From contig JAJYRT010000039.1 of the NCBI GenBank assembly GCA_021793945.1, positions 1 to 13,665 on the forward strand: a stretch of 13,665 bases of DNA, given 5' to 3'. Each line of letters opens with the position of its first letter. Positions within the stretch are counted from its first letter, which is position 1. The notes under the pieces were generated by a model. That model did not search any database and was not told where the DNA came from. It worked only from the letters and a program-made list of their open reading frames with translations. This document shows positions 1 through 12,541 of this stretch, one piece after another. This DNA is from Thermoplasmata archaeon (lineage in GTDB: Archaea; Thermoplasmatota; Thermoplasmata; Thermoplasmatales; Thermoplasmataceae). The position numbers were made by a program, and so were the translations under genes.

Positions 1-1
1 C

Positions 2-106: not shown

Positions 107-347
107 AATAATATTGTCCCAAAACATATATCAAACTGTGTTGCATTTTTGAGGCATCTTTACACCCTGCAACTGGCACTGGTGATTGCGTCAGATTTCC
201 TCAAGAAAGTCTCTGGCATTTCTCACCCTTCTACCCTGTATATCCAGTTCGCTTTCCCTGATTTGGATCATGACATGTTTATTCAGAAGTGTTTCTATGG
301 TGGCAATCAGACTCTGTATAAAGGAACCGGGGGAGCAATGAGCAAAT

Positions 348-602
348 TTACGAATCATAAACGTTCCTTCTATGTCCTGTTCTTAACACCCGAATCATGA
401 GTTTTTCCCTTTCCAGGTCCAAGATCATCCCGTAGTTTCCCACCCTATGCCTATATCTATCATCTCCAACAAGTTTCCTGACATACTCATCCGGCCTTAT
501 CCTGATCCTTTCGATGATTGCTATTATTTTCTGTTTGATTTCCCGGTCAAGTTTTCTAGGTTGCATGAGAGCGAGATCTGAAAAAAGCACTTCATAGGTC
601 AA
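348..602 (-). CDS. RelE/ParE-superfamily toxin of a toxin-antitoxin pair
   Basis: This 84-residue basic protein has the size and layout of RelE/ParE toxins: an N-terminal beta strand (TYEVLFSD), a long helical hairpin (about residues 15-45, with the L-D-R-E-I-K-Q-K and I-I-E-R-I-R pattern), then an Arg-rich beta sheet (YRHRVGNYGMILDLE, then IRVLRTGHRRNVY). The R-x-R-V-G-x-Y and G-H-R segments are typical of the family, which cleaves mRNA on the ribosome or poisons gyrase. Which of these applies cannot be read from the sequence. The start is TTG at 602-600 and overlaps the antitoxin stop by 4 bases (TTGA), so translation is probably coupled. The toxin lies downstream of the antitoxin, the usual order. 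Confidence 0.8.
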   Translation of the reverse strand: MTYEVLFSDLALMQPRKLDREIKQKIIAIIERIRIRPDEYVRKLVGDDRYRHRVGNYGMILDLEREKLMIRVLRTGHRRNVYDS

Positions 603-817
603 AGTCCCAGGTCCTTCTTTACTTCTTCCATGGTGTGATATTTGCCTCCCTTGATCTCCTGCCTAGCTTGGGCGATTTCTCTCTTGGTTTCTTCGTCCAG
701 CTCCAGTGCGTCTTCCATGAGGTCCCAGATTACTTCTTCATAAGTTTCCTTGTCATACACTTTAAGCTTTGCAAGTTCTTTCTGCAGCTTTTCACTAACC
801 TGAATTTTGGTAGGCAT
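599..817 (-). CDS. Antitoxin partner of the RelE/ParE-like toxin
   Basis: This is a 72-residue acidic protein. The N-terminus (PTKIQVSEKLQKELAKLK) is the short beta strand plus amphipathic helix seen in small archaeal ribbon-helix-helix-like antitoxins. The middle is acidic helix (WDLMEDALELDEETKREIAQ), and the C-terminus carries a Y-H-T-M-E-E-V-K-K-D-L-G segment of the kind that wraps around RelE-type toxins. It should neutralise the toxin and repress the shared promoter. The start is ATG at 817-815, with a TATA-like box 21-29 nt upstream. It overlaps the toxin start by 4 bases. The exact antitoxin family is not identified, but the pairing and gene order make the role likely. Confidence 0.75.
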   Translation of the reverse strand: MPTKIQVSEKLQKELAKLKVYDKETYEEVIWDLMEDALELDEETKREIAQARQEIKGGKYHTMEEVKKDLGL

Positions 818-1203
818 TTGAAATTACTATATCATTCTATAGTTTACCATAAGATACATGATTTTGCCGCAAAATTATTGGAATTCAGGGCCCCTTCTCA
901 GGACATGTGGTATTCACTTCTGCACAGCGCTGAACATCAAGGGTGAGTCTTAAAGACTCAAGAACCGGCGGAAGGGCACTCCCCCGCCGTATAAGGAGAA
1001 GTGAAAAGAAAATGGAAATCATAAATATGGGTGGACAGATTTCATCTGCCGATTTTGGACAATTTTCAGTTGGCGTTTACAATCGAAGAGGTCACCAAAA
1101 AGTAACATGGCTGATTCATGAATAAAACTGACTGTTGCAAGACCTGATAATCTGACAGGTTTATGGAAAGCCTCTTTAGATAATTGATGGTGGAATTTTG
1201 CTA
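818..1203. other. 386-bp gap without a gene; two adjacent strong dyads at 945-989
   Basis: No convincing gene lies between the antitoxin start and the end of the MFS gene. Two inverted repeats sit next to each other. GAGTCTT-A-AAGACTC is at 945-959. CGGCGG-AA-GGG-CACT-CCC-CCGCCG is at 966-989, with a nine-pair GC stem and an AA bulge. A weaker hairpin (CAGAT-ttc-ATCTG) is at 1036-1048. The GC stem stands out in this AT-rich spacer. It could be part of a structured RNA, a terminator-like structure or an insertion-element remnant; nothing here decides. Confidence 0.5.
837..845 (-). promoter_or_regulatory. TATA-like box for the toxin-antitoxin operon
   Basis: On the minus strand AAACTATAG ends about 21 nt before the antitoxin ATG, the spacing expected for an archaeal promoter giving a leaderless or near-leaderless mRNA. 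This is a single AT-rich match and is supported mainly by its position. Confidence 0.4.
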
Positions 1204-2415
1204 TCATCCCACTCGTATAACACGTGAAGGCTCCCTGTATCTTGTTGGGAGATACAGGAACAGGAATGAGAAAAACATTGTTCCAAGTAGGATGTATGAG
1301 ATGTTAATTGCCGATCCCAATGAAAGATTTGTTGTTAGAACAATACCAGCGGTAATGCTGCCTACAAACTGGCCAGAGTATTGAATTGTGTTGTAAACGC
1401 CTATGTTAGCTGCATAGCTGTTTCGTTTAGATATCCTGGAAATCAATGGGACAAATACAGTTTCTGAAATGGAATAACCTGTGAAGAAGATGATCAACCC
1501 AACATAGAAGAAATTCCTGTTTTCCAAGGATATAGGGAGGAAATACAGGAATGGAATGCTGACTGATATGATTGCCAGCGATATCAGAGAGAACAGAACA
1601 GTTTTCCCTCTGTCGGCAAACCCTGAGGATAAGACGGCTACGATCCCACCTATTATCACGGGCCAGAAAAGGAGAAGCCCATAACCATTGGAACCGTATG
1701 CACTTGTTCCAAATATTGGCAGGTAATAGAACAGTACAACACTGAAAAATGAGAGCTGGAATCCAACCCCCCCAAGGGCAATTGATTTCATATCGATCCT
1801 TCCGGCCCTCTTTCTTTCTGCCTTATGCACAATATTGCCACCATACTTCACAGCCACGAGTGGAATTATAGAAACTATTCCAAGAATGCCTGTTAGGAGG
1901 AAGAGGAAGTCAGCGCCAATCTTTGTCGCAATAAATGGACCCAGTACTACAGCCACCATGAAAGAAAAACCAATTGGTATGCCCAGGATGGCCATTGCAA
2001 CGTTTCTTCTATCTTGAGGGACGTTTTCCTGCACCATGCCCATACCAGATGATGTTACAGCCCCGGAACCGGCGATAAGACGGCCCACAATAAGACCTGC
2101 AATAGAGCCTGGATGCCATGAAATGAAACTCCCAATAATAAATGGAACCATTCCTAGAATGATCACCTTTTTTTTACCGAATCTGTCTGCCAGGATTCCC
2201 ATGGGTGCCTGAAAAATTGCCATTGTCAGGCCGTAACCGCCAAGAGCAATGCCAATAAGGAGGGGGGAATTCGTGAATTCCTTACCGTATAATGTAAAAA
2301 CTGGAAGTACCAGGAAAATGCCGAAAGCTCTGACAATTTCTATGAAACCCACGGTACCCAACATTAGTTTTTGATTTCTGTCGAATCCCAGGCTCCTGTG
2401 TCCCTTAGAAGCCAT
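1204..2415 (-). CDS. Major facilitator superfamily exporter (drug:H+ antiporter type)
   Basis: The 403-residue protein is almost entirely hydrophobic helices separated by short charged loops, as in a 12-helix MFS carrier of ordinary length. MFS motif A is visible in the first cytoplasmic loop (G-I-L-A-D-R-F-G-K-K-K, residues 73-83), followed by a motif-B-like RLIAGSGA (112-119). A motif-C-like stretch, G-x3-G-F-S-x-M-x6-G-P at about 145-160, marks proton antiporters. These point to drug or metabolite efflux rather than sugar uptake, but the substrate cannot be told. The start is ATG at 2415-2413, with a TATA box at 2443-2456 and a repeated GTAAA/TTTAC array in between. The gene is divergent from a Bat-type regulator, which is its likely controller. 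A 9-bp perfect hairpin (1234-1258) lies in the 3' part of the coding sequence. Confidence 0.88.
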   Translation of the reverse strand: MASKGHRSLGFDRNQKLMLGTVGFIEIVRAFGIFLVLPVFTLYGKEFTNSPLLIGIALGGYGLTMAIFQAPMGILADRFGKKKVIILGMVPFIIGSFISWHPGSIAGLIVGRLIAGSGAVTSSGMGMVQENVPQDRRNVAMAILGIPIGFSFMVAVVLGPFIATKIGADFLFLLTGILGIVSIIPLVAVKYGGNIVHKAERKRAGRIDMKSIALGGVGFQLSFFSVVLFYYLPIFGTSAYGSNGYGLLLFWPVIIGGIVAVLSSGFADRGKTVLFSLISLAIISVSIPFLYFLPISLENRNFFYVGLIIFFTGYSISETVFVPLISRISKRNSYAANIGVYNTIQYSGQFVGSITAGIVLTTNLSLGSAINISYILLGTMFFSFLFLYLPTRYREPSRVIRVG

Positions 2416-2438
2416 GTAAACGCCTTTACTTTGGTAAA
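2416..2438. promoter_or_regulatory. Operator candidate: GTAAA / TTTAC / GTAAA array
   Basis: Three 5-bp half-sites alternate in orientation with identical 4-bp spacers: GTAAA 2416-2420, TTTAC 2425-2429, GTAAA 2434-2438. The period is exactly 9 bp. The array lies between the exporter TATA box and its start codon, where a bound protein would block transcription. The divergent HTH regulator is the obvious candidate to bind it. Arrangement and position are seen; function is inferred. Confidence 0.5.
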
Positions 2439-2442
2439 AATT

Positions 2443-2456
2443 GTTATGTATATTTT
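2443..2456 (-). promoter_or_regulatory. TATA box of the MFS exporter
   Basis: On the minus strand AAAATATACATAAC is centred about 34 nt upstream of the exporter ATG. This predicts a transcript starting a few bases upstream of the start codon, inside or next to the GTAAA/TTTAC array. Confidence 0.5.
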
Positions 2457-2489
2457 CAGAAAATGTTTCTACCGATTATGGTTGGTAGT

Positions 2490-2501
2490 ACTTAAATAAG
2501 T
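2490..2501 (+). promoter_or_regulatory. TATA box of the Bat-type regulator
   Basis: ACTTAAATAAGT is AT-rich and symmetrical. Its centre is about 33 nt upstream of ATG 2529 (24 nt from TTG 2520), which predicts initiation near 2521. Upstream, CTACC (2469-2473) and GGTAG (2484-2488) form a further dyad, which may be a binding site for autoregulation. Confidence 0.5.
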
Positions 2502-2528
2502 TTTTAATTCCTGATACGATTGAATATA

Positions 2529-3185
2529 ATGCAGAAAATAGTGCTGGAATGCCCTTTGATCGAGCTTGCGAAACTAGATGGAGAGTCCCTTTCCATACCG
2601 TTTGAAAAACTGAAGTCACTGGAGGTACTACATTTTCTTAAGATTGATGGAAGTGAGTTCTCAACCGTTAGCAGAATTAAACTGATAGATCCAGCAGAGG
2701 ATATTGAACATGTTTTCGCGGGAAACCACATTGACGTGAAACCGTTGATTGAGGAGGACCCAGGCACCTACATATGTTTTACCAGAGGTGAAAGAAAATC
2801 GAGGGCACAGTATATCAAGAAGACCGACGTCTACTTCACGGGTCCCTACATAATCAGGAATGAAAAAGTAACCTTTGGAATACTGGGCGAAATCGCCAGT
2901 TTAAGGGCATTTATGAAAGATATGGAAAACAGGATAAACGGATTTAAGGTGATTTCCGTGACAAACGGAGATCAACTAAACTCCTCTCCTCTTCAAGCAC
3001 TCACAGGCAAACAGAGAGAAGTAATATCCAGAGCGTTTCGGCTTGGTTATTATGACATGCCTAGGAAGATTTCTTCCACCAAAATTGCTGTAAAACTGGG
3101 TATGAATCAGTCAACTTTCACAGAGCACAGGAGAAAAGCAGAACACAGGATTATGGAGTGGATAAATTCAAATTATTCGCTGTAA
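2529..3185 (+). CDS. Bacterio-opsin activator (Bat)-type HTH transcription regulator
   Basis: The C-terminal 50 residues match the archaeal HTH_10 (Bat) DNA-binding domain: a L-T-x-K-Q-R-E-V-I-x2-A-x2-L-G-Y-Y-D-x-P-R helix and turn, then S-S-T-K-I-A-V-K-L-G-x-N-Q-S-T-F-T-E-H-x-R-K-A-E as the recognition helix region. The N-terminal 150 residues are a mixed alpha/beta domain of the kind that precedes HTH_10 in this family, presumably a sensor; its ligand is not visible. I prefer ATG 2529 (218 aa). A TTG at 2520, in frame, would add three residues and sits closer to the expected leaderless position. The gene is divergent from the MFS exporter, sharing a 113-bp spacer full of dyads, and so probably controls it and perhaps itself. 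Confidence 0.85.
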   Translation: MQKIVLECPLIELAKLDGESLSIPFEKLKSLEVLHFLKIDGSEFSTVSRIKLIDPAEDIEHVFAGNHIDVKPLIEEDPGTYICFTRGERKSRAQYIKKTDVYFTGPYIIRNEKVTFGILGEIASLRAFMKDMENRINGFKVISVTNGDQLNSSPLQALTGKQREVISRAFRLGYYDMPRKISSTKIAVKLGMNQSTFTEHRRKAEHRIMEWINSNYSL

Positions 3186-3404
3186 CATAGTGTTTGACTT
3201 TACGAAAGAGATTGGCCTTCCTTATTCTGATCTCTCTTCTTCATGAATATTTTTTACATCTATTCAAGACCTTTGAATCACCTTGGGTTCTTTGCCCCTA
3301 TTTAGATTCGATAGAGATTGGGAACTTATTCGAAATCCTCTGAAAATATTTGGTATTCGTTTAAAACAATGAGCAAATATCGCCCGGTCCATAACTAGTC
3401 TGGT

Positions 3405-4004
3405 CTATAGACTACTTACTTCGTGAAACACATAACGGAATATACTTTCGGAAAAATTCATGGCTTGCCTGTACTTATCTATGCCGAAAGATGAAATTAT
3501 ATTGTAGATTTCTCGAGAGGTAGACTTGTAGACGGACTCATCAAGTGATCTCCACCTATGGAAGAGTTCTGCTTCTTCTCTTCCATTGTGCTCAGTCAGC
3601 AGACTGTAGTAAAGAGGCATTCTCGTATTGTATAGCTCTTCATTTCCTCCATCTTTCCAGCGAATAAGATTCTGTGCAAGTTTATCCAGGAGTTTATGGT
3701 CTGCAGCTATCTGCTTTATCTTTTCCTTGTAATTCCTGGAATCATCCCAGAGTGGGGAAGACAGAGATGGGAAAACAACTTTTTCCTCGACCACAATATG
3801 AACATTCAGAAGGAATTCGTGAAAGTTTACAAACCTGTCATAATCCCCTGACTTCTCCTGCAGGTCCTTCATTGACTTGCATTGCAAATGCTCTATCATC
3901 AGCAATTCTACCGCGTCAATTACCATTTCAATAAGTTCAACCAATAGCTGTATGAAAGGTTTTGGCAATAATGGGTTCTGCCTCATCATTCTCTTTGAAA
4001 ACAC
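3405..4004 (-). CDS. Hemerythrin-like HHE di-iron protein
   Basis: This 199-residue, all-helical soluble protein has the hemerythrin ligand set: His39 on the first helix, His69-x3-Glu73 on the second, His103 on the third and His139-x3-Glu143 on the fourth. The family (HHE cation-binding domain) binds a di-iron site used for O2, NO or redox sensing, iron repair or detoxification. A C-terminal tail of about 45 residues extends beyond the four-helix bundle. The start is GTG at 4004-4002, with AAGGA a few bases upstream; ATG codons at 3989 or 3986 are alternatives and would remove only five or six residues. The gene is divergent from the DUF488 gene across 66 bp. The 10-bp palindrome GTCTATAGAC (3403-3412) straddles its stop codon. 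Confidence 0.85.
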   Translation of the reverse strand: MFSKRMMRQNPLLPKPFIQLLVELIEMVIDAVELLMIEHLQCKSMKDLQEKSGDYDRFVNFHEFLLNVHIVVEEKVVFPSLSSPLWDDSRNYKEKIKQIAADHKLLDKLAQNLIRWKDGGNEELYNTRMPLYYSLLTEHNGREEAELFHRWRSLDESVYKSTSREIYNIISSFGIDKYRQAMNFSESIFRYVFHEVSSL

Positions 4005-4038
4005 ACGGTGTCCTTTCGTTCCGCAATTCTCAACCGAT

Positions 4039-4047
4039 CATTAATAA
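4039..4047. promoter_or_regulatory. Shared TATA region of the divergent hemerythrin/DUF488 pair
   Basis: CATTAATAA is centred 28 nt upstream of the DUF488 ATG, which fits a leaderless plus-strand transcript. Read on the other strand (TTATTAATG) it is about 39 nt upstream of the hemerythrin GTG, leaving room for a short leader with an AAGGA motif. One AT-rich element may therefore serve both genes and link their expression. Confidence 0.45.
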
Positions 4048-4070
4048 CCCAAACAGGAATTTTGTAAGGC

Positions 4071-4415
4071 ATGATATCAATCGCTTGGGCATATGATACA
4101 ACCTCCACTGCCAGGGGAATCAGGATATTGGTTGATAGGCTCTGGCCTAGAGGAATTTCGAAGGAGAAACTTAACGTGGACCGGTGGATGAGGGAAATTG
4201 CCCCGTCCGATGATTTGAGAAAGTGGTATTCACACATTCCCGAAAGGTGGGATGAGTTCAGGGTAAGGTATTTTTCCGAATTAAAGAACAACCCAATGGT
4301 TGAGCAGCTGATACAGCTATGCAGAACCGAAGATGTTGTCTTTATATTTTCTTCGAAGGAACGTGTCCACAACAATGCCACCGCATTAATGGAATACGTT
4401 GTTGAACGGCTCTAG
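4071..4415 (+). CDS. DUF488 (YeaO-like) family protein
   Basis: The 114-residue protein follows the DUF488 pattern closely: R-I-L-V-D-R-L-W-P-R-G at 18-28, then W-M-R-E-I-A-P-S-D-D-L-R-K-W-Y at 39-53, F-R-x-R-Y-x2-E-L at 63-71, and the closing strand-helix V-F-I-F-S-S-K-E-x3-N-N-A-x2-L at 90-107. It has the usual length. The biochemical function of the family is unsettled; small members are found near stress and redox genes. The start ATG 4071 is leaderless-compatible. Its tight divergent pairing with a hemerythrin-like protein suggests co-regulation under oxidative, nitrosative or metal stress, which is an inference from context only. Confidence 0.88.
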   Translation: MISIAWAYDTTSTARGIRILVDRLWPRGISKEKLNVDRWMREIAPSDDLRKWYSHIPERWDEFRVRYFSELKNNPMVEQLIQLCRTEDVVFIFSSKERVHNNATALMEYVVERL

Positions 4416-4671
4416 ACTGCTGTGCTTTTTGTGTGGCATCACCTATTGCCACCTGGAATGTGGACAGCCGGGCACTTTCAGTTGCCTAAACAACGTCATC
4501 CAGCAGATGAAGTTCACAGGCTTTCTGCCCATGTGACCATGAAAGACTGGTTCAATACAGGGAGCATTTCCCGGGAATTCCCATCAAATAGCAGAAATCC
4601 AACATGGGAATGTAGCAAGGTGCTTTCGCTTCCCAGATATCTTTCATATGAAAGCAAAAACCATGAATCAA
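4416..4671. other. Intergenic spacer with a 14-bp palindrome
   Basis: The spacer lies between the convergent ends of the DUF488 and HxlR genes. The only clear structure is the perfect palindrome CTTTCATATGAAAG at 4641-4654, 18 bp beyond the HxlR stop. It could be a terminator-associated stem. A GTG-started plus frame crosses the spacer and continues antisense into the HxlR gene; its Trp/His/Pro-rich composition does not look like a protein gene. Confidence 0.4.
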
Positions 4672-5040
4672 CTATGGCAGAACTTCTTCCATTAGACGAA
4701 GCAATGGTAGAAGCCTTTCCCTTACATCAATCCCAAAATCAGTCAGTGAATAATAGACGCCATGCTTGCCCTCGATTCTTTGTATCAAACTTGAATCCTG
4801 TAAATCCCTGAGTCTTCTGGAGATAATAGTTGAGCTTGAATATGGGATGTCCCTGAGTATCTCATTGAAATTTTTCTTATTCCCGCTGTTCCCTATTACT
4901 CCAAGAACCAACATTGTATATTTCTTCCCAATCAACTTTAGGAGAGGCAGTGAAGGATCAACACAAACGGCGTGTTCACTGTCCTCGATCATGCATGCTT
5001 TCGCCTTATTTTGGAATCTCTTCTGTTCATAATTCCACAT
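4672..5040 (-). CDS. HxlR-family winged-helix regulator, candidate mercury-responsive repressor
   Basis: This 122-residue protein has the HxlR pattern: C-V-D-P-S-L-P-L-L-K-L-I-G-K-K-Y-T-M-L-V-L at about 26-46, F-N-E-I-L-R-D-I-P at 58-66, the recognition helix S-S-T-I-I-S-R-R-L-R-D-L at 69-80, then the wing (L-I-Q-R-I-E ... V-Y-Y-S-L-T-D-F-G). Cys26 sits where HxlR proteins often carry a conserved, redox-sensing cysteine. A second cysteine (Cys16) lies ten residues before it, with His23 between, so a thiol or metal sensor is plausible. The open frame extends upstream but is there antisense to merP. I chose ATG 5040; TTG 5049, preceded by GGTGA, would add three residues. It is divergent from merP-merA and is the only regulator in the cluster. 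Confidence 0.83.
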   Translation of the reverse strand: MWNYEQKRFQNKAKACMIEDSEHAVCVDPSLPLLKLIGKKYTMLVLGVIGNSGNKKNFNEILRDIPYSSSTIISRRLRDLQDSSLIQRIEGKHGVYYSLTDFGIDVRERLLPLLRLMEEVLP

Positions 5041-5057
5041 TTTCCCCAATTTCTCTT

Positions 5058-5074
5058 CACCAGCAATATTGGTG
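5058..5074. promoter_or_regulatory. Dyad in the mer divergent promoter (CACCA-7-TGGTG)
   Basis: CACCA at 5058-5062 and TGGTG at 5070-5074 are inverted, around the 8-bp palindrome CAATATTG (5064-5071). The dyad lies just upstream of the HxlR start codon and downstream of its probable TATA region, a good place for autorepression. HxlR proteins bind dyads as dimers; specificity here is inferred. Confidence 0.45.
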
Positions 5075-5077
5075 GAG

Positions 5078-5093
5078 GTAAAAAAATGTTTAC
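5078..5093. promoter_or_regulatory. Second dyad in the mer promoter (GTAAA-6-TTTAC)
   Basis: GTAAA (5078-5082) and TTTAC (5089-5093) flank an A-rich centre directly upstream of the merP TATA box, and overlap the AT-rich stretch that would serve as the HxlR TATA region. Occupancy could affect both directions. The half-sites are the same pentamers found in the MFS operator array, though the spacing differs. Confidence 0.4.
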
Positions 5094-5100
5094 TTTGATG

Positions 5101-5110
5101 TATTAATATT
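5101..5110 (+). promoter_or_regulatory. TATA box of the merP-merA-DUF302 operon
   Basis: TATTAATATT is centred 23-24 nt upstream of ATG 5129, the geometry of a leaderless archaeal promoter. This also supports ATG 5129 over the upstream in-frame TTG at 5120. Confidence 0.55.
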
Positions 5111-5128
5111 TGCCCGTGATTGGTACTT

Positions 5129-5362
5129 ATGTCAGAGGAAAAAGTCAAACTGAGAATATATGGAATGACCTGCGACGACTGTGTTAGAACTGTTAGCGGT
5201 GGGCTAAAGAAACAGGATGGAGTGCTGGACATCAAAATATCCCTGAAAGACGGCATTGGAGAAGTCGTAGTAAATCCGGAGAAAGTAAAAGCTGAAGAAC
5301 TTCTTAAAAACAAAGTGTTCACAAAACCATCCCATTATAAAGCAACACTCATTGATCAATAA
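5129..5362 (+). CDS. merP: Stand-alone HMA-domain metallochaperone (MerP-like, cytosolic)
   Basis: This is a 77-residue heavy-metal-associated domain with the metal-binding loop G-M-T-C-D-D-C (Cys15, Cys18) after the first strand, and the usual beta-alpha-beta-beta-alpha-beta order. There is no signal peptide, so unlike bacterial periplasmic MerP it should act in the cytosol. It sits directly before a MerA that lacks its own N-terminal HMA domain, so it probably plays the part of that missing domain: capturing Hg(II) from thiols and passing it to MerA. The start ATG 5129 is 23-24 nt from a TATA box. The stop overlaps the Shine-Dalgarno sequence of merA. A copper chaperone role (CopZ-like) is the alternative, made less likely by the operon. 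The gene symbol reflects role, not proven orthology. Confidence 0.85.
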   Translation: MSEEKVKLRIYGMTCDDCVRTVSGGLKKQDGVLDIKISLKDGIGEVVVNPEKVKAEELLKNKVFTKPSHYKATLIDQ

Positions 5363-5368
5363 AGGAGG
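5361..5368 (+). promoter_or_regulatory. Shine-Dalgarno sequence fixing the merA start
   Basis: AAAGGAGG overlaps the merP stop codon (TAA 5360-5362) and stands 7 nt before TTG 5376, which is in the merA frame. The nearer ATG at 5371 is out of frame, and the TTG at 5352 lies upstream of the site. This internal operon gene therefore uses a ribosome binding site, unlike the leaderless first gene. Confidence 0.65.
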
Positions 5369-5375
5369 CAATGAT

Positions 5376-6815
5376 TTGAACAGCGATACACAGAAATTCG
5401 ATCTTGTGATACTGGGAAGGGGCGCAGCGGCATTTTCAGCTGCAATCAAAGCTTCCGAACTCAGCAATGGTGAGATGACGATTGCCATGATCGGCACTGG
5501 CCCTCTTGGGGGCACGTGTGTCAACGTTGGTTGTGTGCCCTCAAAGTACCTGCTTGAAGCTTCGCATTCTGTTTTCAGGCCGGAACACCCCAAGATGGCG
5601 GGAATACAAACAACACCAGTAAACTATGACTTCTCTAAAGTAATGGATGGTTTGAGATCCTATGTTGCACACGCAAGGGACTCAAAATATGTTCAGGTGA
5701 TTGGAAGTTACCCCAACGTGAAACTTTTCTCTGGATTGGGAAAATTTGTTGATAAAAAGTCGGTAATGGTATCGGATTCTGAGGGAAATGAAATTGCCGT
5801 GGTCTCTGGGTCTAACATTCTCATTGCAACAGGGTCTCATCCCACCACCCCGAACATTGAAGGATTGAAGGAAGCAGGATTCCTCACAAGCGATACAATT
5901 TGGGAACTAAAAGAACTGCCGAAGTCCGTTGCCATCATAGGCGGCGGTGCCATAGGGCTTGAGTTGGGGCAGGCTCTGCTGCATTTCGGCTCAAATGTTA
6001 CTGTCATAGAGGCCCTGGATTCTCTTCTTCAACAGTCTGAACCTGAGATTGGACTTGCCCTTAAAGGCAAACTGGAAGAAGAGGGCATGAAGTTCTTCCT
6101 GAGGGCAAGAGTTAGCTCCGTAAGCTCATCTGGAAACAGAAAAACAATTCATACCATAACACACAAGGGGGAGGAAAAAGTGGAAGTTCAGGAGATCGTG
6201 GTTGCAACTGGAAGACAGCCAAATACACAGTACCTCAACCTCGAAGCAGCCGGCGTTGACACCGATTCCAGGGGGCAAATAGTGACTTCAGATGCAATGA
6301 AGACATCCGCACCAGGAATTTATGCGGCAGGTGACTGTGTTTCAAAGAAGATGTTCCTGGAAACCCTTGCCGCGAGAGAGGGAGTTATTGCCGTAAGCAA
6401 TATGTTCGGAGAAGATCTCAGAATAGATTACGACTCTGCAACCTGGGCCGTGTTTACCAGCCCACAGATTGCAGGGGTTGGAATGACAGAAAACCAGTTC
6501 TCAAAGAAGAGTGGATCATGTTCGTGCAGGGTATTCCCACTTGAAAACCTGACGAAGGCGAGCATAATGGGCGAAACCGAAGGTGTTATAAAGATTACAG
6601 TGGATCCCAAGGACAACCGAGTTGTGGGCATGCACATAATGGCCCCCAATGCAACAGACATCATAACTGAGGGTGCGTATGCTGTCAGGAATGGGTATGC
6701 CATTGACGACATAATCGCAACAAGCCATATCTTCCCGTCATTTTCAGAGGGGGTAAAGCTTGCAGCCCAGTCGTTCATTAGGGATCTTTCAAAGATGGCG
6801 TGCTGCGTGGAATGA
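5376..6815 (+). CDS. merA: Mercuric reductase MerA
   Basis: This flavoprotein disulfide reductase (479 aa from TTG 5376) reduces Hg(II) to volatile Hg(0) with NAD(P)H in the cytosol. In order it shows the FAD-binding strand-turn-helix L-G-R-G-A-A-A-F-S-A (13-22), the redox pair G-G-T-C-V-N-V-G-C (Cys48, Cys53), the S-K-Y motif whose Tyr105 matches the active-site tyrosine near the Hg channel, the NAD(P)-binding G-G-G-A-I-G-L-E-L-G (189-198), the second FAD motif Y-A-A-G-D-C (316-321), and the C-terminal dimerisation domain ending Cys476-Cys477-Val-Glu, the vicinal cysteines diagnostic of MerA. There is no N-terminal HMA domain; merP supplies one. The second active-site tyrosine of bacterial MerA (F-P-Y-L-T) is replaced by F-P-S-F, two residues shorter. 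C382-x-C384 is an extra cysteine pair. Confidence 0.95.
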   Translation: MNSDTQKFDLVILGRGAAAFSAAIKASELSNGEMTIAMIGTGPLGGTCVNVGCVPSKYLLEASHSVFRPEHPKMAGIQTTPVNYDFSKVMDGLRSYVAHARDSKYVQVIGSYPNVKLFSGLGKFVDKKSVMVSDSEGNEIAVVSGSNILIATGSHPTTPNIEGLKEAGFLTSDTIWELKELPKSVAIIGGGAIGLELGQALLHFGSNVTVIEALDSLLQQSEPEIGLALKGKLEEEGMKFFLRARVSSVSSSGNRKTIHTITHKGEEKVEVQEIVVATGRQPNTQYLNLEAAGVDTDSRGQIVTSDAMKTSAPGIYAAGDCVSKKMFLETLAAREGVIAVSNMFGEDLRIDYDSATWAVFTSPQIAGVGMTENQFSKKSGSCSCRVFPLENLTKASIMGETEGVIKITVDPKDNRVVGMHIMAPNATDIITEGAYAVRNGYAIDDIIATSHIFPSFSEGVKLAAQSFIRDLSKMACCVE

Positions 6816-7198
6816 TGGAAATGAAAGTGAAAGAGATAATATCAAAATATGGATTCAATCAAACAATAGAGTTGCTGGAGAAGGCTGTGGAAGATTATGG
6901 TCTGAAGGTCGTATCGACCATAGACGCTCAGGCAAATCTGAAGAAGATTAATGTCGAGGTTGGTGGAAACAAGATTCTAGAAGTTTTTCATCCGAAACTT
7001 GCCAAGGAAGTTTTAGACGGCGATCTGAGGGGTGGCATTGTCCCACCTCTGAGAATTTATGTATACGAAGAAAATGGAACAACTCATGTGGAGACGCAGA
7101 ATGTGATGGAACTTTTCTCCGAGTTTAACGGGCTGGAAGAACTTGGCAGGAAAGTGGATGGGATATTAAATTCCGTGATCAATTCTGTCAGACAATAG
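6812..7198 (+). CDS. DUF302 protein, translationally coupled to merA
   Basis: This soluble protein has 128 residues from ATG 6812, whose A-T-G-A overlaps the merA stop; ATG 6815 and 6821 are alternatives. The core fits DUF302: an N-terminal helix (QTIELLEKAVEDYG), the strand L-K-V-V-S-T-I-D, then I-L-E-V-F-H-P-K-L-A-K-E-V-L and the strand I-V-P-P-L-R-I-Y-V-Y-E. Many family members have a cysteine just before that last strand; this one has proline, and the whole protein contains no cysteine, so it should not bind Hg by thiols. DUF302 function is not established. Tight coupling to merA suggests a part in mercury or thiol stress. A hairpin across its stop codon, followed by a T-run, probably ends the operon. 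Confidence 0.85.
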   Translation: MMEMKVKEIISKYGFNQTIELLEKAVEDYGLKVVSTIDAQANLKKINVEVGGNKILEVFHPKLAKEVLDGDLRGGIVPPLRIYVYEENGTTHVETQNVMELFSEFNGLEELGRKVDGILNSVINSVRQ

Positions 7199-7237
7199 AC
7201 TGTCTGGTTCATCCCGGAGATGTGTGGACATTTTTAT
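7188..7237 (+). terminator. Probable end of the mer operon
   Basis: CAGACA (7189-7194) and TGTCTG (7201-7206) form a 6-bp stem with a 6-nt loop that straddles the DUF302 stop codon. A T-run (TTTTTAT, about 7231-7237) follows 25 nt later. Archaeal termination depends mainly on T-runs, so the hairpin may be incidental. Confidence 0.4.
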
Positions 7238-7345
7238 CCATTATCACATTATATTTCCCATGCACTTGACTTTACGTGATTACCGGAAGCGTTGTCTGCA
7301 GAAAGACTGATTCGCAATGTTATCACGACCCTGATGCTGCGGTGC

Positions 7346-7591
7346 CTATGATACCGAAATGAGTTTCAGTTCTTGTGCAAACCTGATTGCCTCACTGTTC
7401 CCGGAATCGATCTTCTCCCTGGCATCCTTACCATTGATTACGTAATGCAACCTGACTTGATCTAGTATGTCCATGACATATGACAGCGGCGCAGTTCCGC
7501 TTACGTTCCTTGCACTGATTTATAACAGCATCAAAGATGTGACATCCCCTACATCAACCATTGATGTTCTGAAAACAATAAGAATAACATT
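7346..7591 (-). pseudogene. Decayed minus-strand gene remnant
   Basis: A frame open from 7519 to a TAG at 7346-7348 reads as a normal soluble peptide (57 codons, including S-G-T-A-P-L-S-Y-V-M-D-I-L-D-Q-V-R-L). Upstream in the same frame, across one in-frame TAA (7520-7522), about 23 more plausible codons continue (V-D-V-G-D-V-T-S-L-M-L-L). One nonsense change in an ancestral gene would explain this. No start codon or Shine-Dalgarno sequence fits, and no family is recognised. It lies in the element-rich tract between the mer operon and the IS3 element. Confidence 0.35.
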
Positions 7592-7693
7592 CCTTTGAGA
7601 AACAAGGAGGCAAGGAAGCTGGTGACATCGCAGGATGAACATGACATTATGGCAATGAAGGCACTGGAAATAGAACTTGAATTAGCAGCCTGA
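7586..7693 (+). pseudogene. Possible plus-strand gene tail
   Basis: A 35-codon stretch ending at TGA 7691-7693 has gene-like composition (K-E-A-R-K-L-V-T-S-Q-D-E-H-D-I-M-A-M-K-A-L-E-I-E-L-E-L) and reads as a C-terminal amphipathic helix. Stops close the frame upstream, so it is either a fragment or a very short gene starting at TTG 7595. No family is recognised. Confidence 0.22.
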
Positions 7694-7723
7694 TGATTCT
7701 CATTTCAAACAGGAATAGAGCCA

Positions 7724-7831
7724 CTAGGGAGTGTCAACAAGAATAAACCATGTAAAGTCACGATACCATCTATAACTATACTCCTGCCACATATATGTCG
7801 CATTCATCCTACTGACCCGAGCCATCACAGA
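7724..7831 (-). pseudogene. C-terminal gene fragment cut by the IS3 element
   Basis: A minus frame runs out of the left end of the IS3 element and closes at TAG 7724-7726 after 35 codons. It is rich in Tyr, Trp and Arg (S-R-M-N-A-T-Y-M-W-Q-E-Y-S-Y-R-W-Y-R-D-F) and looks like a real protein end. Its longer form continues antisense into the transposase gene, which is an artefact. The natural upstream part would lie beyond the right end of the IS (minus strand, above 9086). Confidence 0.35.
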
Positions 7832-7921
7832 ACTGGAACACCATGATAATAATATTATAGAGAAGAACAGATACATAAAGAGCATGCGAAAAGTGGTTTT
7901 CCAGATCGTGGAGGTCTCTTC

Positions 7922-8200
7922 ATGAAGTCCAAATATTCGGCCGAAGAGAAGTTCCAGATAGTCATGGAATCCTTTGCAGACAATGTGACACAGGCTGAAA
8001 TATGCCGGAGGCACGGTATATATCCCGTACAGCTGAGCAAGTGGAGAGAACAGTTCATCCAGGGCGGTAAGTCAGCACTGGCCCAGAGAAGGAATTCCGA
8101 TTCAAGGGACGAGGAGATCGAGGATCTGAAGAAGATCATAGGAGATCAATCACTGGTCATAGATGCTTTTAAAAAAAGGCTTCAAGGGAGGTCAAGATGA
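7922..8200 (+). CDS. IS3-family transposase OrfA
   Basis: This 92-residue protein has an N-terminal transposase_8-type helix-turn-helix (Y-S-A-E-E-K-F-Q-I-V at 5-14, Q-A-E-I-C-R-R-H-G-I at 24-33, L-S-K-W-R-E-Q-F at 38-45), then an acidic/leucine heptad region (E-E-I-E-D-L-K-K-I-I at about 64-73) for oligomerisation. It recognises the element ends. The start ATG 7922 has a good ribosome binding site (GGAGGT, 6 nt away). Near its 3' end is a run of seven A (8171-8177), and the -1 frame from there is open into orfB, so a -1 frameshift could make an OrfAB fusion, as is known for IS3 elements. The stop overlaps the orfB start (ATGATG). Confidence 0.85.
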   Translation: MKSKYSAEEKFQIVMESFADNVTQAEICRRHGIYPVQLSKWREQFIQGGKSALAQRRNSDSRDEEIEDLKKIIGDQSLVIDAFKKRLQGRSR

Positions 8201-9072
8201 TGGTTCTTGAAGATCTGAAACAGGAGATGTCCTTGAGGAATATCTCAAGGATATCCGGAATATCCCTCTCCGGATATTATTACAGACATAGGGAGAGGAA
8301 TATTCAGAGGCTTGACCCTTCCACAAGGGAAAGGATCAATGACATTGCATCGGAAAGACCAACATACGGATACAGGAGAGTGTGGGCAATACTGAGGAAT
8401 CAAGGTACAATGGTGAACCAGAAGACCGTCAGGAAAGTACTCAAGGAAAGCAACCTGAACCTTCCTGCATAAAAACACAGAGGGAGAACAAAGCCCGGGA
8501 ATCTCTTCAGGCCAGATGGTCCGGATCAGCTCTGGGAAACTGATATCGCCTATATCCCAACAGAGTCTGGAATGACCTATCTGATGTGCATAAAGGATGT
8601 ATTCACGAAGGAATGGCAGGGATACCATTATTCCAGGTCATGCATGGCAAGGGATGCCATACGATCAGTGGAAAACGCCGTTCTCATGGCATTCAACGGG
8701 ACAGTTCCTGAAGATCTTGTACTGAGGACAGACAATAGCCCCCAGTACATATCCCATGAGTTCAGGAATGCCATGAAACTCCTTGGAATAAGGTTGGAGT
8801 ACATACAGAAGCATACTCCTGAGGACAATGGAGACATTGAGTCGTTCCACAACTCAATCAAGATAGACTATATCTGGCCTAATGAATTCATGGATTTCCA
8901 TGATGCTTCCATAGAGATAGGGAAGGCATTCTCCGATTACAATGAATGCAGGCCGCATTCATCCATTGATTATCTTCCTCCAAGGGAGTTCAGGAGGAAG
9001 TTCCTGGACGATAAATCATTCAGGGAAAGATTCGAGAAGAAAGAAGTTGAGGTGACACTAGATGAGAATTGA
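8197..9072 (+). pseudogene. IS3-family transposase OrfB, broken by one nonsense codon
   Basis: The frame starts at ATG 8197 (GGGAGG 5 nt upstream), encodes an HTH_21 region (E-R-P-T-Y-G-Y-R-R-V-W), meets TAA at 8470-8472, and resumes in the same frame with the integrase core. The catalytic residues are all present: Asp codon 8542-8544 (W-E-T-D-I-A-Y), Asp 8731-8733 (R-T-D-N-S-P-Q-Y) and Glu 8839-8841 (D-I-E-S-F-H), spaced D(62)D(35)E. The context (L-P-A-stop-K-H-R-G-R) suggests AAA changed to TAA, a single base change. A restart at ATG 8572 would lose the first Asp. The coding sequence is otherwise well preserved, so the change is recent. Confidence 0.8.
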
Positions 9073-9113
9073 GGAAAAGTGTTCCAAATTCTGCTGGAGC
9101 AGATCACTACAGC

Positions 9114-9263
9114 TTAAACCATAGGCTTTCTGTTCAGATTATCGTAATCGTAACTGGATGCGATGTCGTTCTTCTCCATGAATGTGTGGAGATTAGATGC
9201 ATCCACGAATACCTTGGAAGAGTCGTAACCAGGGGAGATGAGTTTCTCCCTGACCCTGTCCAT
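9114..9263 (-). CDS. Small unrecognised ORF, or tail of a frameshifted gene
   Basis: This 49-codon frame starts at ATG 9263-9261, overlapping by one base (TAATG) the stop of the frame upstream, and ends at TAA 9114-9116. Its composition is gene-like (M-D-R-V-R-E-K-L-I-S-P-G-Y-D-S-S-K-V-F-V). The same frame also reads plausibly upstream of the ATG, across one stop, so it may be the displaced end of a single older gene rather than a coupled second one. No family is recognised. It ends 28 bp from the IS3 right end. Confidence 0.3.
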   Translation of the reverse strand: MDRVREKLISPGYDSSKVFVDASNLHTFMEKNDIASSYDYDNLNRKPMV

Positions 9264-9535
9264 TATTGTCTTAACCCTGAATCTGAGAACCTGTCAGTAA
9301 TGGTCCAGTATCCCTGCGACGTAACGCAGCGATATATGGTGAATGAGAAGTCGCCGCTCATCCACTTGCCTATCGGGTTCTTAGATTGCGGATCGCGCAA
9401 CCTGTTCATTTTGAATGTAAGCGCATAATTACCGGCCGACAGCCTTTTGTTGTTGTGCGGAATCAGATCGTTTATAATATTATTCAGCTCTATCTACTTC
9501 TCCATCTTCGACAGCACAAAGAACTGATGTCCAAG
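9263..9535 (-). pseudogene. Minus-strand gene interrupted at the IS605 edge
   Basis: A gene-like frame begins at the edge of the IS200/IS605 element, meets TAG at 9496-9494 just after M-E-K, and then stays open for 76 codons to TAA 9265-9263. The open part (R-L-S-A-G-N-Y-A-L-T-F-K-M-N-R-L and later F-T-I-Y-R-C-V-T-S-Q-G-Y-W-T-I) reads as a folded protein with an ordinary C-terminus. The absence of a proper start and the abrupt boundary with the element suggest that the 5' part was separated by the insertion. No family is recognised; a plasmid or virus origin is possible but not shown. Confidence 0.4.
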
Positions 9536-9539
9536 GGGT

Positions 9540-9650
9540 GACATCCTCCCCGCCCTATCGGACGGGGCTTCCTGCTTCTGCGATCTGGGTTACCCTAGCA
9601 GGTAGTGCCCTGATCTCCACAGGCGTAACTTCGGGAGTGCCCCTCCCTAC
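9540..9650 (-). ncRNA. Probable omega RNA (TnpB guide) region with right-end hairpin
   Basis: In IS605 elements the transcript over the tnpB 3' end and the right end is the omega RNA, whose 3' guide comes from the DNA just outside the element. Here the right-end hairpin (9548-9567: stem CCCCG/CGGGG, one C-A mismatch, then CC/GG, loop TATC) overlaps the tnpB stop codon (9555-9557). The guide should be the roughly 16-20 nt below about 9537 on the minus strand. The hairpin is seen; the RNA is inferred from the family, and the limits are approximate. Confidence 0.5.
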
Positions 9651-10757
9651 TTTCTCTAATGCCCGATTGTGGATGTTGATTGCAGCATTGAGATCCCTGT
9701 CGATTTCAAAACCGCAATGATCACATCTGAAGACTCTCCTTGAGAGTTTCAGTTCTTGCTTCCTGTATCCACAGTTTGAACATGTCCTTGATGTATTTCC
9801 TGGATCAACCATCACCACTTCCTTACCGGCACTGTCAGCCTTGTAGGTCGTGAATTGCAAGATGGTGCCCCACGAAGCATCAGCTATGCTTTTTGCTAAA
9901 TGATGATTCTTCATCATTCCCGTTATATTCAGACTCTCGAAAGCCATCAGATCATTGTTTTGCACCATCTGATTTGACAGCTTGTGTGCAAAATCCTCTC
10001 TCTGGTTCTTCACTTTTTGATGCTGTTTTGAGAGGCTGATCTTTGCTTTCTTTTGGTTGTTCGATCCCTTCTTCTTGCGTGACAGGTTCCTCTGTGCCTT
10101 TTTGATCCTTTTCTCTCCCTTCTTCAGAAATTTTGGAGGATCAACCACAGTTCCGTCACTCATGGCGAGAAGATGCAGGAGGCCGGCATCAATTCCAATG
10201 CTGTTGCCAGTCTTCTCCGGTTGGATGGTAACACTCTCCTGCTTCACGGAGAATGATGCATACCATTTCCCTGATCCGTCATGTGAGATGTTGAGCGTCT
10301 TGATCTCGCCTTCAATCTCACGGTGCATGAACATTCTGATTGCCCCGATCTTTGAAAGCCTCAGATGTCCGTTCTCCATGAGAGTGAAACCGGACTGAGG
10401 GTATGTTAATGACCTGTATCTTCCCTTACCTTTCAGTCTCGGGAAACCTGCCTTCTGCTTGACGCCTTGCTTCTTCTCCCTTATTCTTCTATAGAAGTTC
10501 TGGTATGCACGATCTGCTCTCCGGACTACATCCTGCAATACCTGTGAATGTATGTTCCTGTATTCATCAAAAGTATTCTTCAGTTCAGGTATCTCATTCT
10601 GCTGATGGTTATATGTGAGGGATTTCTTTGATCCCCTGTAAGCGTATCTCCTTTCCAGCAGTAATGAATTGTACAGTTCTCTGCAGAGTTCCAGTTGTTC
10701 ATTGAGCCTTTCTTCCTGTTCTGCAGATGGGTACAGCCTGAACTTATACGCTTTCAA
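9555..10757 (-). CDS. tnpB: TnpB RNA-guided nuclease of an IS200/IS605 element
   Basis: The 400-residue protein is full length. The N-terminal OrfB_IS605 domain starts K-A-Y-K-F-R-L-Y-P. The RuvC-like core has Asp190 (S-I-G-I-D-A-G), Glu274 (L-M-A-F-E-S-L) and the closing Asp in D-R-D-L-N-A-A-I-N-I (353/355), so all three acidic positions are kept. The zinc ribbon has Cys326, Cys329, Cys345 and Cys348. TnpB is the ancestor of Cas12 and uses an omega RNA to cut DNA next to a transposon-specific motif, helping the element to persist. The start ATG lies 14 bp inside tnpA, indicating coupled translation. The stop falls in the loop of the right-end hairpin. Confidence 0.93.
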   Translation of the reverse strand: MKAYKFRLYPSAEQEERLNEQLELCRELYNSLLLERRYAYRGSKKSLTYNHQQNEIPELKNTFDEYRNIHSQVLQDVVRRADRAYQNFYRRIREKKQGVKQKAGFPRLKGKGRYRSLTYPQSGFTLMENGHLRLSKIGAIRMFMHREIEGEIKTLNISHDGSGKWYASFSVKQESVTIQPEKTGNSIGIDAGLLHLLAMSDGTVVDPPKFLKKGEKRIKKAQRNLSRKKKGSNNQKKAKISLSKQHQKVKNQREDFAHKLSNQMVQNNDLMAFESLNITGMMKNHHLAKSIADASWGTILQFTTYKADSAGKEVVMVDPGNTSRTCSNCGYRKQELKLSRRVFRCDHCGFEIDRDLNAAINIHNRALEKVGRGTPEVTPVEIRALPARVTQIAEAGSPVR

Positions 10758-11166
10758 TCCTCTTTTCCTCCTGTGATTCTACGTACTTCATCAACACAGG
10801 GAGCGTTACCTGGCCCGATGTTGCCAGAAAGTATGATGGTGACCATAGTTTACCGTTCCATAGGACTTTAGTGACCTCCGGGAACTTCCTCTGTATTTCT
10901 CTGGACGTTATGGTTTTCACTGCATTTACAAATTCAGTGATTCTCAGTACAGGAGTTCCCTTGAAGAGCATATGGAAATGATCCTTATCACATTCTATTG
11001 AAACAATCTCGACACCCGATCTATCCGCTATCTCCCTCACCTTTATTTTGAGAAAGTCCACTAAACCATCATTAGTGAACACTTCCCTGCGGTACTTCAC
11101 CACTTGTATGAAATGATAATATAGAGAGTATACGGAATGAGCTCCCCTGTCCAGGTTATAAGGCAT
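10744..11166 (-). CDS. tnpA: TnpA Y1 (HUH) transposase of the IS200/IS605 element
   Basis: This is a 140-residue single-domain transposase of normal length. The metal-binding HUH motif is His63-Phe-His65 (D-H-F-H-M-L-F), and the nucleophilic tyrosine is Tyr128 (V-L-M-K-Y-V-E-S-Q). The N-terminal half has the strand Y-H-F-I-Q-V-V-K-Y-R-R typical of the family. It cuts and rejoins single-stranded DNA at the element ends by recognising subterminal hairpins, one of which (11215-11228) lies about 50 bp upstream of the ATG at 11166-11164. All catalytic residues are present. It overlaps tnpB by 14 bp. Confidence 0.93.
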   Translation of the reverse strand: MPYNLDRGAHSVYSLYYHFIQVVKYRREVFTNDGLVDFLKIKVREIADRSGVEIVSIECDKDHFHMLFKGTPVLRITEFVNAVKTITSREIQRKFPEVTKVLWNGKLWSPSYFLATSGQVTLPVLMKYVESQEEKRIESV

Positions 11167-11214
11167 AGTTATATCATTTCTTTATCAGCTATCAGGATTT
11201 CGCTTTCATTCCCT

Positions 11215-11228
11215 CCCTTTCGGAAGGG
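11215..11228. repeat. Left-end hairpin of the IS200/IS605 element
   Basis: The inverted repeat CCCTT-TCGG-AAGGG has a five-pair stem and a four-base loop. Its position upstream of tnpA is that of the left-end structure recognised by TnpA. Confidence 0.55.
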
Positions 11229-11389
11229 GATTTCTCGCTCATTTTTTGTTAAATTAAGGGGAGTTCGTGTATTCGATATGTGCCGACAGTATTCGCATGA
11301 AGAGTTTCCAGGGGAACAAAATTGTCCATGGAAAACCACACCGGTACGAGACCACCTCCTATAATATGATGTAAAAGAGCATGGACCCA

Positions 11390-11803
11390 TCAGTATGTTA
11401 GTGAGAATCCCTTCGCGCTGAGGGAGTCAGATCTTCCCCTCCTGATGGAGATGGCCTGCCTGCCCCTATCTATGGCGCGCCAAACAGCTTTGCCGATGGC
11501 TAATGTGAACTTTTCTGTTTTAATTATTTCATACAGGGACAAATCATTGACGTCGCCAAGAATTCTTACGCTGATTTTAGCTTCCAGTTGGCACATATCA
11601 TCTGGACATGGGCCTTTTTCCTCAACCAAATCCAAGACTAGAAATTTCCCTTTAGCGGCCTTTAACACTCCTTTTCCCAATTCAACTTTTCCCTTTCCAA
11701 CAGCAATTGAGTCTGGAATGTTGGAATTCTTGTCCACCAAGTTTTTTTCAGGCGCGCCAAGCGGTGGGCCTATACCGGCAGTTAAATCTCTCACTAAACT
11801 CAT
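11390..11803 (-). CDS. Unrecognised 137-aa protein with a CPDDMC motif
   Basis: I do not recognise this family. The protein is soluble, with no signal peptide or membrane segment. An N-terminal Gly/Pro-rich stretch (T-A-G-I-G-P-P-L-G-A-P) is followed by a Gly/Lys/Val-rich strand region (I-A-V-G-K-G-K-V-E-L-G-K-G), a central C-P-D-D-M-C pair (Cys66, Cys71), and an Arg-rich end (R-A-I-D-R-G-R-Q-A-I-S-I-R-R-G-R). The cysteine pair could bind metal or form a disulfide. A good TATA box 28 nt before ATG 11803 supports a real leaderless gene. The opposite-strand frame of similar length is Ser/Thr/Pro-rich and looks antisense. The next gene upstream is a TRASH-type metal regulator in the same direction, 148 bp away. 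Confidence 0.65.
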   Translation of the reverse strand: MSLVRDLTAGIGPPLGAPEKNLVDKNSNIPDSIAVGKGKVELGKGVLKAAKGKFLVLDLVEEKGPCPDDMCQLEAKISVRILGDVNDLSLYEIIKTEKFTLAIGKAVWRAIDRGRQAISIRRGRSDSLSAKGFSLTY

Positions 11804-11825
11804 GGTTAATTATAATTCATCGCAG

Positions 11826-11836
11826 TTATTTATAAT
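11826..11836 (-). promoter_or_regulatory. TATA box of the 137-aa protein gene
   Basis: On the minus strand ATTATAAATAA is centred 28 nt upstream of ATG 11803, the geometry of a leaderless archaeal promoter. The gene can thus be expressed independently of the regulator gene upstream. Confidence 0.55.
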
Positions 11837-12473: not shown

Positions 12474-12474
12474 A

Positions 12475-12530: not shown

Positions 12531-12541
12531 CAACACAATTC

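Follow-up and report, generated by a model that had tools for sequence, protein, structure and literature searches.

A DUF302 gene recurrently placed behind merA in HMA-merA gene sets of Thermoplasmata

We analyzed positions 4672–7198 of a 13,665-nt stretch of DNA (hereafter the window: positions 1–13,665, forward strand, of contig JAJYRT010000039.1, assembly GCA_021793945.1) from a Thermoplasmata archaeon (Thermoplasmatales; Thermoplasmataceae). This locus carries a divergent gene for an HxlR-type regulator, followed by the genes for a small HMA-domain protein, a mercuric reductase (MerA) and a protein of the DUF302 family, which very probably constitute a mercury operon. Comparison with related loci revealed that hxlR-HMA-merA is a common plan with DUF302 as an optional fourth gene, and that DUF302 genes apparently joined the archaeal merA set more than once. 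This suggests that they help in coping with mercury, and the gene context indicates that the DUF302 protein is probably a non-thiol accessory of mercury and thiol handling. An earlier reading of the sequence alone (the sequence-only reading) had already given the order as divergent hxlR, HMA, merA without an HMA domain and DUF302; strands and coordinates checked out, and family profiles matched all four genes.

In an unbiased survey, we searched 350 genomes of the class to which E-plasma belongs for both MerA and DUF302 and obtained MerA matches over the cut-off in 69 and DUF302 in 102 of them. The DUF302 table comprised 150 listed matches from 100 genomes, with weaker DUF302s falling outside it. 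Counting a DUF302 gene as adjacent if its match lay on the same strand within 600 bp downstream of a MerA match, we found it directly 3' of merA for at least 17 of the 78 over-cut-off MerA matches in the 69 genomes; our own arithmetic from gene density gives about 0.02 cases expected by chance. Because of shared descent, these cases do not represent 17 independent events. One MerA below the cut-off (genome G034) likewise has an adjacent DUF302. DUF302 next to merA is thus found in many genomes, and the possibility raised with the sequence-only reading, that the neighborhood occurs in this genome only, no longer holds.

We compared the architecture around 80 MerA loci, namely those of the 78 over-cut-off matches and two slightly under the cut-off; absences are upper bounds because several loci end at contig edges. 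Since an HMA gene was present directly 5' of merA in 59 loci, and was accompanied by a divergent hxlR gene in 30 of the 80, we regard hxlR-HMA-merA as a common plan. The layout that had been singled out in the window is therefore real and not special to this genome. All 19 loci with an adjacent DUF302, which include a broken one and the sub-cut-off one, contain the HMA gene 5' of merA, compared to 40 of the 61 others. A gene for a TRASH protein took this position in two of the 80 loci (L169 and L170), resembling the plan of Sulfolobus.

A DUF302 tree was calculated from 68 distinct rows from the collected loci, 24 of them next to merA. In this unrooted tree, the window protein belongs to a main clade of 25 rows (clade M, support 98), 21 of which are merA-linked. 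Further merA-linked DUF302s were found in a second clade (L182 and L054, of which the L054 gene is also that of L114) and in a third one (L083, whose gene is also that of L160). The label of merA linkage changed six times on the tree, with at least four changes forced by the starred branches, and none of 500 shuffles gave a number as low; the changes may be gains or losses. Clade M, an FGNP type and a cysteine-pair type form three groups of the tree, and we do not claim a loss of cysteines in clade M. The tree of MerA (83 distinct rows, 24 with a DUF302 including the broken one) showed two deep clades, both with DUF302-associated members. Compared to members of MerA clade II, the window MerA is only about 45% identical, whereas the DUF302 proteins share 62–68% identity. 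A nesting of the clade II-linked DUF302s within the clade I-linked ones was not supported by a tree with outgroup, and the approximately unbiased test does not reject a single clade I group (p 0.47); we therefore claim no direction for a movement of clade-M DUF302 between the MerA clades. At L160, the MerA falls inside the window's clade, while the following DUF302 gene comes from a different DUF302 clade and precedes a CMD gene, so a foreign DUF302 fills the slot behind merA.

Another scan was led by DUF302, using pattern and tblastn searches of GTDB species genomes, its set being chosen by DUF302. It recovered 23 loci, nearly all from Thermoplasmata/Thermoplasmatales and including one E-plasma scaffold and one metagenome-assembled genome (MAG) of a Micrarchaeota member. 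In 19 of them merA lies directly upstream, with L004 holding only its 3' part; L007, L014, L015 and L018 are without merA upstream. In L007, the contig ends 165 bp upstream, and none of the three forward frames of this remainder reads as a MerA end. Among 196 genomes of the phylum of G006, from which L007 originates, four including G006 contain a clade-M-like DUF302. No merA-like open reading frame (ORF) was recognized among the listed neighbors of L198, L199 and L200, the loci of the three genomes besides G006, as judged by eye from the ORF list and without a family scan; L201 is a second, weak clade-M-like match in the genome of L198. A search of viral contigs returned no relative of the window DUF302 protein. 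In L132 (2378–2784), merA is intact but the DUF302 following it is broken across two frames, and in L004 (5342–6348) an intact DUF302 gene follows a 5'-truncated merA; merA or DUF302 can therefore be lost separately.

The window protein matches the DUF302 profile above its cut-off (50.1 bits), is assigned the DUF302 fold and contains no cysteine, as the sequence-only reading had stated; the same applies to 72 of 76 database relatives. At the two positions of the cysteine pair (C-x-P and P-C) that is present in 35 of 43 DUF302s outside the window's clade and in the solved DUF302 structures 1q9u and 1j3m, it carries Phe and Leu, and all of clade M has Phe and Leu, Ile or Val. Because of these hydrophobic residues, DUF302s of the main mer-linked clade would not trap Hg(II).

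The merA stop and the first ATG of DUF302 indeed overlap in the window as had been pointed out, but this arrangement is not conserved: among 25 loci with an adjacent DUF302 (including both near-copies L009 and L010), the merA stop reads ATGA in only five, GTGA in 18, and GTAA and ATAA in one each, so we rejected a conserved exact ATGA coupling. Most aligned DUF302s begin at an ATG a few bases past the merA stop, which corresponds to position 6821 in the window, 5 nt downstream. From the tight linkage, we infer that DUF302 is made in step with MerA. Ratios of nonsynonymous to synonymous substitution rates (dN/dS) of nine within-clade pairs amounted to 0.08–0.32 for DUF302 and 0.04–0.21 for MerA, with a dS value near 2 in the pair of the window and L001. 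DUF302 is under purifying selection, and it changes faster than MerA in eight of the nine pairs and equally fast in one.

The MerA of the window scored 523.8 bits with the mercuric reductase profile, above the curated cut-off of 454.45, and lacks an N-terminal HMA domain. Its redox pair (CVNVGC) corresponds to a CxxxxC motif kept in 99 of 99 aligned rows, and the vicinal cysteines of its C-terminal ACCVE motif are kept in 98 of 99, near-copies being included in both counts. The equivalent of Tyr264 (Tyr100 of Tn501), located by alignment with 1zk7 and from PMC4500099, is Tyr in the window and in 98 of the 99 rows, and the archaeal Phe replaces Tyr605/441 in the window and in 98 of 99. All MerA-recognition residues used in the consulted part of PMC3466566 were found, with the archaeal Phe at position 605. 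Among 36 PDB sequences matching the window MerA at E ≤ 1e-50 are the mercuric reductases 5x1y, 1zk7 and 4ywo. By its profile score and signature residues, we consider merA a genuine mercuric reductase gene. Its TTG start is separated from the HMA stop by 13 bp that contain GGAGG. A second hxlR-HMA-merA set in genome G077 (L179:2786–4919) has an HxlR without the cysteine pair, an HMA protein reading GMTSNEC and a MerA ending in SCYVE with Phe at the Tyr100 position, which suggests a decaying or re-purposed paralogue.

The HMA protein, recognized with 42.4 bits, had been called MerP-like. It does not qualify as MerP, reaching 26.9 bits with TIGR02052 versus a cut-off of 92.55, and only a charged stretch of 11 residues precedes its GMTCDDC motif, which by inspection, without a predictor, leaves no room for a signal sequence. 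The protein therefore appears to be cytosolic, acting more like a detached NmerA or CopZ. The motif GM[TS]CxxC was present in 61 of 61 distinct HMA proteins (one per locus, >25 bits), a choice that omitted the second HMA of L179.

The regulator matches its family profile with 42.3 bits (cut-off 20.8), and its closest solved relative is 3df8 (E 3.1e-26). Its start is most likely the ATG at 5040, because the longer GTG frame, reaching 5322, would run into the HMA gene. Two N-terminal cysteines, a plausible Hg(II) site, are present in 39 of 44 distinct HxlRs of MerA loci; four of the other five are N-terminally truncated in the ORF calls, and one (L140) is truly without them. The upstream sequences of relatives have a GTAAA-N6-TTTAC dyad in common, followed by an AT-rich, TATA-like stretch (in most of 20 upstream regions viewed). 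Allowing spacers of 4–7 within 650 bp 5' of merA, we found the dyad in 37 of 83 distinct MerA loci, 36 times with spacer 6 and once with 5, and always at −266 to −303 from merA, just before the HMA gene, against a background of 10 matches per 618 kb of the remaining sequence. It was present in 21 of 45 loci with HxlR and in 16 of 38 without. The dyad of the window is the only match with at most one mismatch and is not significant alone (chance mean 0.36; a match in 64 of 200 shuffles). Nine of ten merA-bearing genomes contain any exact dyad, each of the nine has one at a merA promoter, and it is the sole site in four; altogether, 10 of the 24 sites in these ten genomes are at merA. We consider the conserved dyad a likely HxlR operator. 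The TATA-like element about 24 nt before the HMA start suggests a leaderless transcript; the spacing of dyad, TATA element and ATG fits what is familiar from archaea in general, namely mRNAs without a leader and repressor sites adjoining the TATA box. The 1.94-Mb genome G077 contains a mer island with extra dyad copies (L140 at 1309 and 5220, L179 at 6696), one before genes for a 187-aa membrane-like protein and a 199-aa protein weakly resembling AhpC/TSA (below the cut-off) and another before genes for 136-aa and 422-aa proteins; these are possible further members of a mercury regulon, e.g., transporters.

Outside mer operons, the neighbors of DUF302s without merA linkage (68 proteins scanned) included 11 CMD, two thioredoxin and two OsmC proteins, and TrxR-like genes are also found beside such DUF302s. 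A DUF302 of the cysteine-pair type together with a CMD/AhpD-like gene is a recurrent pair in Thermoplasmata (e.g., L031, L038, L039, L085, L088 and L101), perhaps a thiol-peroxide system. Plasmid-borne DUF302s occur in a TusA/DsrE/rhodanese operon, in a run of rhodanese and FAD-oxidoreductase genes and in a copper cluster. In the literature, passages of PMC5037610 and PMC11034169 place DUF302 genes in sox clusters, PMC6305408 in part describes one in a rhodanese/dioxygenase module, and a passage of PMC5061849 likens one to a gene of the Synechocystis sqr operon; according to the part seen of PMC5248467, the Thiobacillus thioparus sox operon has no DUF302. These bacterial sulfur clusters share with the window a DUF302 gene beside genes of thiophilic chemistry, but merA, which adjoins DUF302 in the window, is neither named in the passages of PMC5037610 and PMC6305408 nor listed in the plasmid TusA/DsrE/rhodanese region.

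We propose that the locus works as an operon for the reduction of mercury in the cytosol, is induced by Hg(II) and has recruited an accessory gene. HxlR would most likely shut the operon by binding the dyad next to the TATA box and would be released when Hg(II) binds to its two conserved N-terminal cysteines. The CxxC motif of the HMA protein would take up Hg(II) and pass it to the C-terminal cysteine pair of MerA, as family knowledge of the NmerA domain in bacteria leads us to expect, and MerA would reduce it to Hg(0). DUF302, translated from the end of the same transcript, would act as a non-thiol accessory of the mercury/thiol pathway; among the versions of this role, we favor one in which its pocket binds a small thiol or sulfur ligand, or the metal or oxidized adduct of such a ligand, so that exchangeable thiols stay available to MerA. 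DUF302s with the cysteine pair seem to serve thiol/peroxide chemistry beside CMD/AhpD-like proteins instead. Taken as a whole, we slightly favor this explanation, and a contribution of DUF302 to mercury/thiol handling appears somewhat probable, while the small-ligand mechanism is offered tentatively, as one that is rather less expected to hold. Similarly speculative is the combined proposal that the mer-linked DUF302 is a dedicated new Mer component with hydrophobic residues in place of redox-type cysteines, unpoisoned by Hg(II) beside MerA and brought in behind merA on three or more occasions, and that a Thermoplasmata-wide HxlR operator defines a mercury regulon.

Several findings weigh against this explanation. 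Among the matches listed, 61 of the 78 over-cut-off MerAs have no adjacent DUF302, which is therefore dispensable for mer operons in general, and 132 of the 150 listed DUF302 matches do not lie beside any compared MerA (the 78 over the cut-off and the eight next best). The merA-linked DUF302 of L160 keeps the cysteine pair, and no function is attached to the solved DUF302s 1q9u and 1j3m. Of nine annotated plasmid surroundings of distant DUF302s, only three have a clear sulfur or copper theme, two a weak one (cobalt uptake; bacillithiol genes) and four none. The exact dyad is missing in 46 of the 83 distinct loci, including 24 of the 45 with HxlR and L136, the closest relative; L136 and L008, both HxlR-bearing, contain near forms. 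Finally, the same pattern written backwards as a control is commoner than the dyad in the ten genomes (46 versus 24 sites), and therefore the fixed position of the dyad, not its frequency, is the evidence.

The sequence-only reading had proposed a MerA partner or thiol-redox support as roles for DUF302; either may apply, the context favoring a mercury/thiol neighborhood. As a protein partner, DUF302 might attach to dimeric MerA, or to the complex in which HMA transfers mercury to MerA, and either stabilize it or speed the hand-over, without any small ligand. This would agree with its fixed slot behind merA on the same strand (107–108 bp between the profile matches in 15 of 17 cases among the matches listed), its restriction to loci with HMA directly upstream (19/19 versus 40/61 of the others) and the occurrence of DUF302s beside TrxR-like flavoproteins, which are relatives of MerA. 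However, the DUF302s of the main clade stay much more similar than their MerAs, which makes a finely fitted interface less likely, DUF302s of three clades are used, and most MerAs among the matches listed do without an adjacent one, so we regard a partner role as unlikely.

Also unlikely is a general thiol or oxidative-stress gene riding in a stress island without a specific role for mercury. In its favor, DUF302s often occur away from mer operons (the family is present in 102 of the 350 genomes), where their neighbors include CMD, OsmC, thioredoxin and sulfur genes, and the mer cassettes of the window and G077 lie among insertion sequences. A passenger is not expected to take the same slot repeatedly, whereas DUF302s of separate clades lie on the same strand behind merA, in the main clade only a few bases away, and are under purifying selection. 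Finally, the cassette may not primarily serve mercury, with HxlR responding to disulfide stress or a different electrophile and other substrates being used by the MerA-like enzyme. The solved structures of the HxlR family include YodB and HxlR, which sense electrophiles, and the cysteine-pair DUF302s point to redox chemistry; against this, the full MerA signature, of which the C-terminal cysteine pair is kept in 98 of 99 rows when near-copies are counted, and the CxxC HMA gene directly 5' of merA in 59 of 80 loci make such a cassette highly improbable.

Parts of this plan are already known: merA and merP occur together in Thermoplasmatales. A merP homologue with merA is reported for Ferroplasma acidarmanus (fer1) in the part of PMC3466566 considered, and merA and merP for plasmas from acid mine drainage in that of PMC3750248, which corresponds to the merA and small HMA protein described here; HxlR and DUF302 are not mentioned in the main text of either paper. 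The E-plasma scaffold (L022) carries HMA-merA-DUF302, and no HxlR was found nearby. A mercuric-ion-binding protein and mercuric reductase are reported from genomic islands of acidophilic archaea in passages of PMC12302457; Christakis et al. 2021 (PMC8261052) report Thermoplasmata MerA in several lineages in the section seen, the terms DUF and HMA not occurring in the text; and PMC10378326, in the passages considered, reports no mercury genes for its archaeal MAGs. In the open-licence papers searched, figures and supplements not covered, no link between merA and DUF302 was seen, and HxlR together with mercuric reductase was likewise not found there. The one paper there that names both DUF302 and merA puts a DUF302, in its copper section, at the flank of an Acidihalobacter heavy-metal cluster, and its merA passages are without it. 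What is new is the dyad at a near-fixed site before the HMA gene and the difference in the cysteine pair of the mer-linked DUF302 clade.

As had been claimed before, the plan differs from the bacterial merRTPA order, its divergent regulator being an HxlR protein (PF01638) and MerR not being beside merA. Bacterial MerA with an NmerA domain (Tn501 etc.; cores 1zk7 and 5x1y) has the same HMA CxxC unit feeding a core with C-terminal CC, but fused, whereas it is a separate protein encoded upstream in the window. The plan also differs from that of Sulfolobus, which includes merI. The merH-merA sets of Sulfolobus and Metallosphaera, as far as described in the relevant passages of PMC3466566 and PMC4500099, resemble the window in that an archaeal merA is accompanied by a small gene for metal trafficking and by a regulator of its own. 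Also shared are the Phe in place of Tyr441 and, close to it, a conserved Glu that is a candidate for the Glu317 described for thermophile MerA. However, they use a TRASH protein and an ArsR-type regulator, whereas HMA and HxlR are present here. The analysis provides specific candidates for both the operator and the regulator of the Thermoplasmata mercury response. DUF302 is a family without assigned function, whose sulfur-oxidation, rhodanese/persulfide, copper and mercury clusters are not yet tied together in the parts of the literature covered, and losing the gene from a mer operon would make the whole family accessible through easily scored traits, Hg tolerance and Hg(0) release.

Table 1. 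Features of the mer locus (coordinates refer to the window).
Feature	Position	Strand	Basis and remarks
hxlR, winged-helix regulator, divergent, 122 aa	4672–5040	−	PF01638; start taken as ATG at 5040; two N-terminal Cys
Putative HxlR operator, dyad GTAAAAAAATGTTTAC	5078–5093	+	position conserved at merA loci
TATA-box-like element TATTAATAT	5101–5109	+	read from the sequence; presumed promoter role
HMA metallochaperone, 77 aa, GMTCDDC at residues 12–18	5129–5362	+	PF00403
merA, mercuric reductase, 479 aa, TTG start, C-terminal CCVE	5376–6815	+	TIGR02053
DUF302 protein, 128 aa, Cys-free	6812–7198	+	PF03625; alternative conserved start 6821
ATGA overlap of merA stop (6813–6815) and first DUF302 ATG (6812), in frame	6812–6815	+	sequence

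A family scan detected no MerT or other membrane Hg transporter among the four genes of the locus, models for MerT/C/E/F not being included; an MFS gene is present at 1204–2415, apart from the mer operon. No relative of positions 4600–7300 was found at the DNA level among 72,556 plasmids. Downstream of the mer cassette, at 7922–9072, lies a transposase pair with Pfam matches to HTH_Tnp_1, HTH_21 and rve, which is presumably IS3-like. A pair very similar by eye adjoins the mer cassette of G077 (L140:5653–6796), and mer cassettes may move or rearrange with such a pair. In the window, the pair is followed by an IS200/IS605-type element (9555–11166) with genes for a TnpB-like (OrfB/Cas12f1-like) protein and a Y1 transposase. 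A further metal sensor close to the mer operon is encoded on the reverse strand at 11952–12473, an Lrp/AsnC-type helix-turn-helix protein that carries an archaeal TRASH domain; its gene is adjoined by a membrane-like gene without Pfam match (12542–13123). At the other end of the window, a small gene pair is encoded at 348–817 on the reverse strand, the downstream gene of which weakly matches a ParE-type toxin (24.2 bits, cut-off 23), while the upstream gene sits where an antitoxin would.

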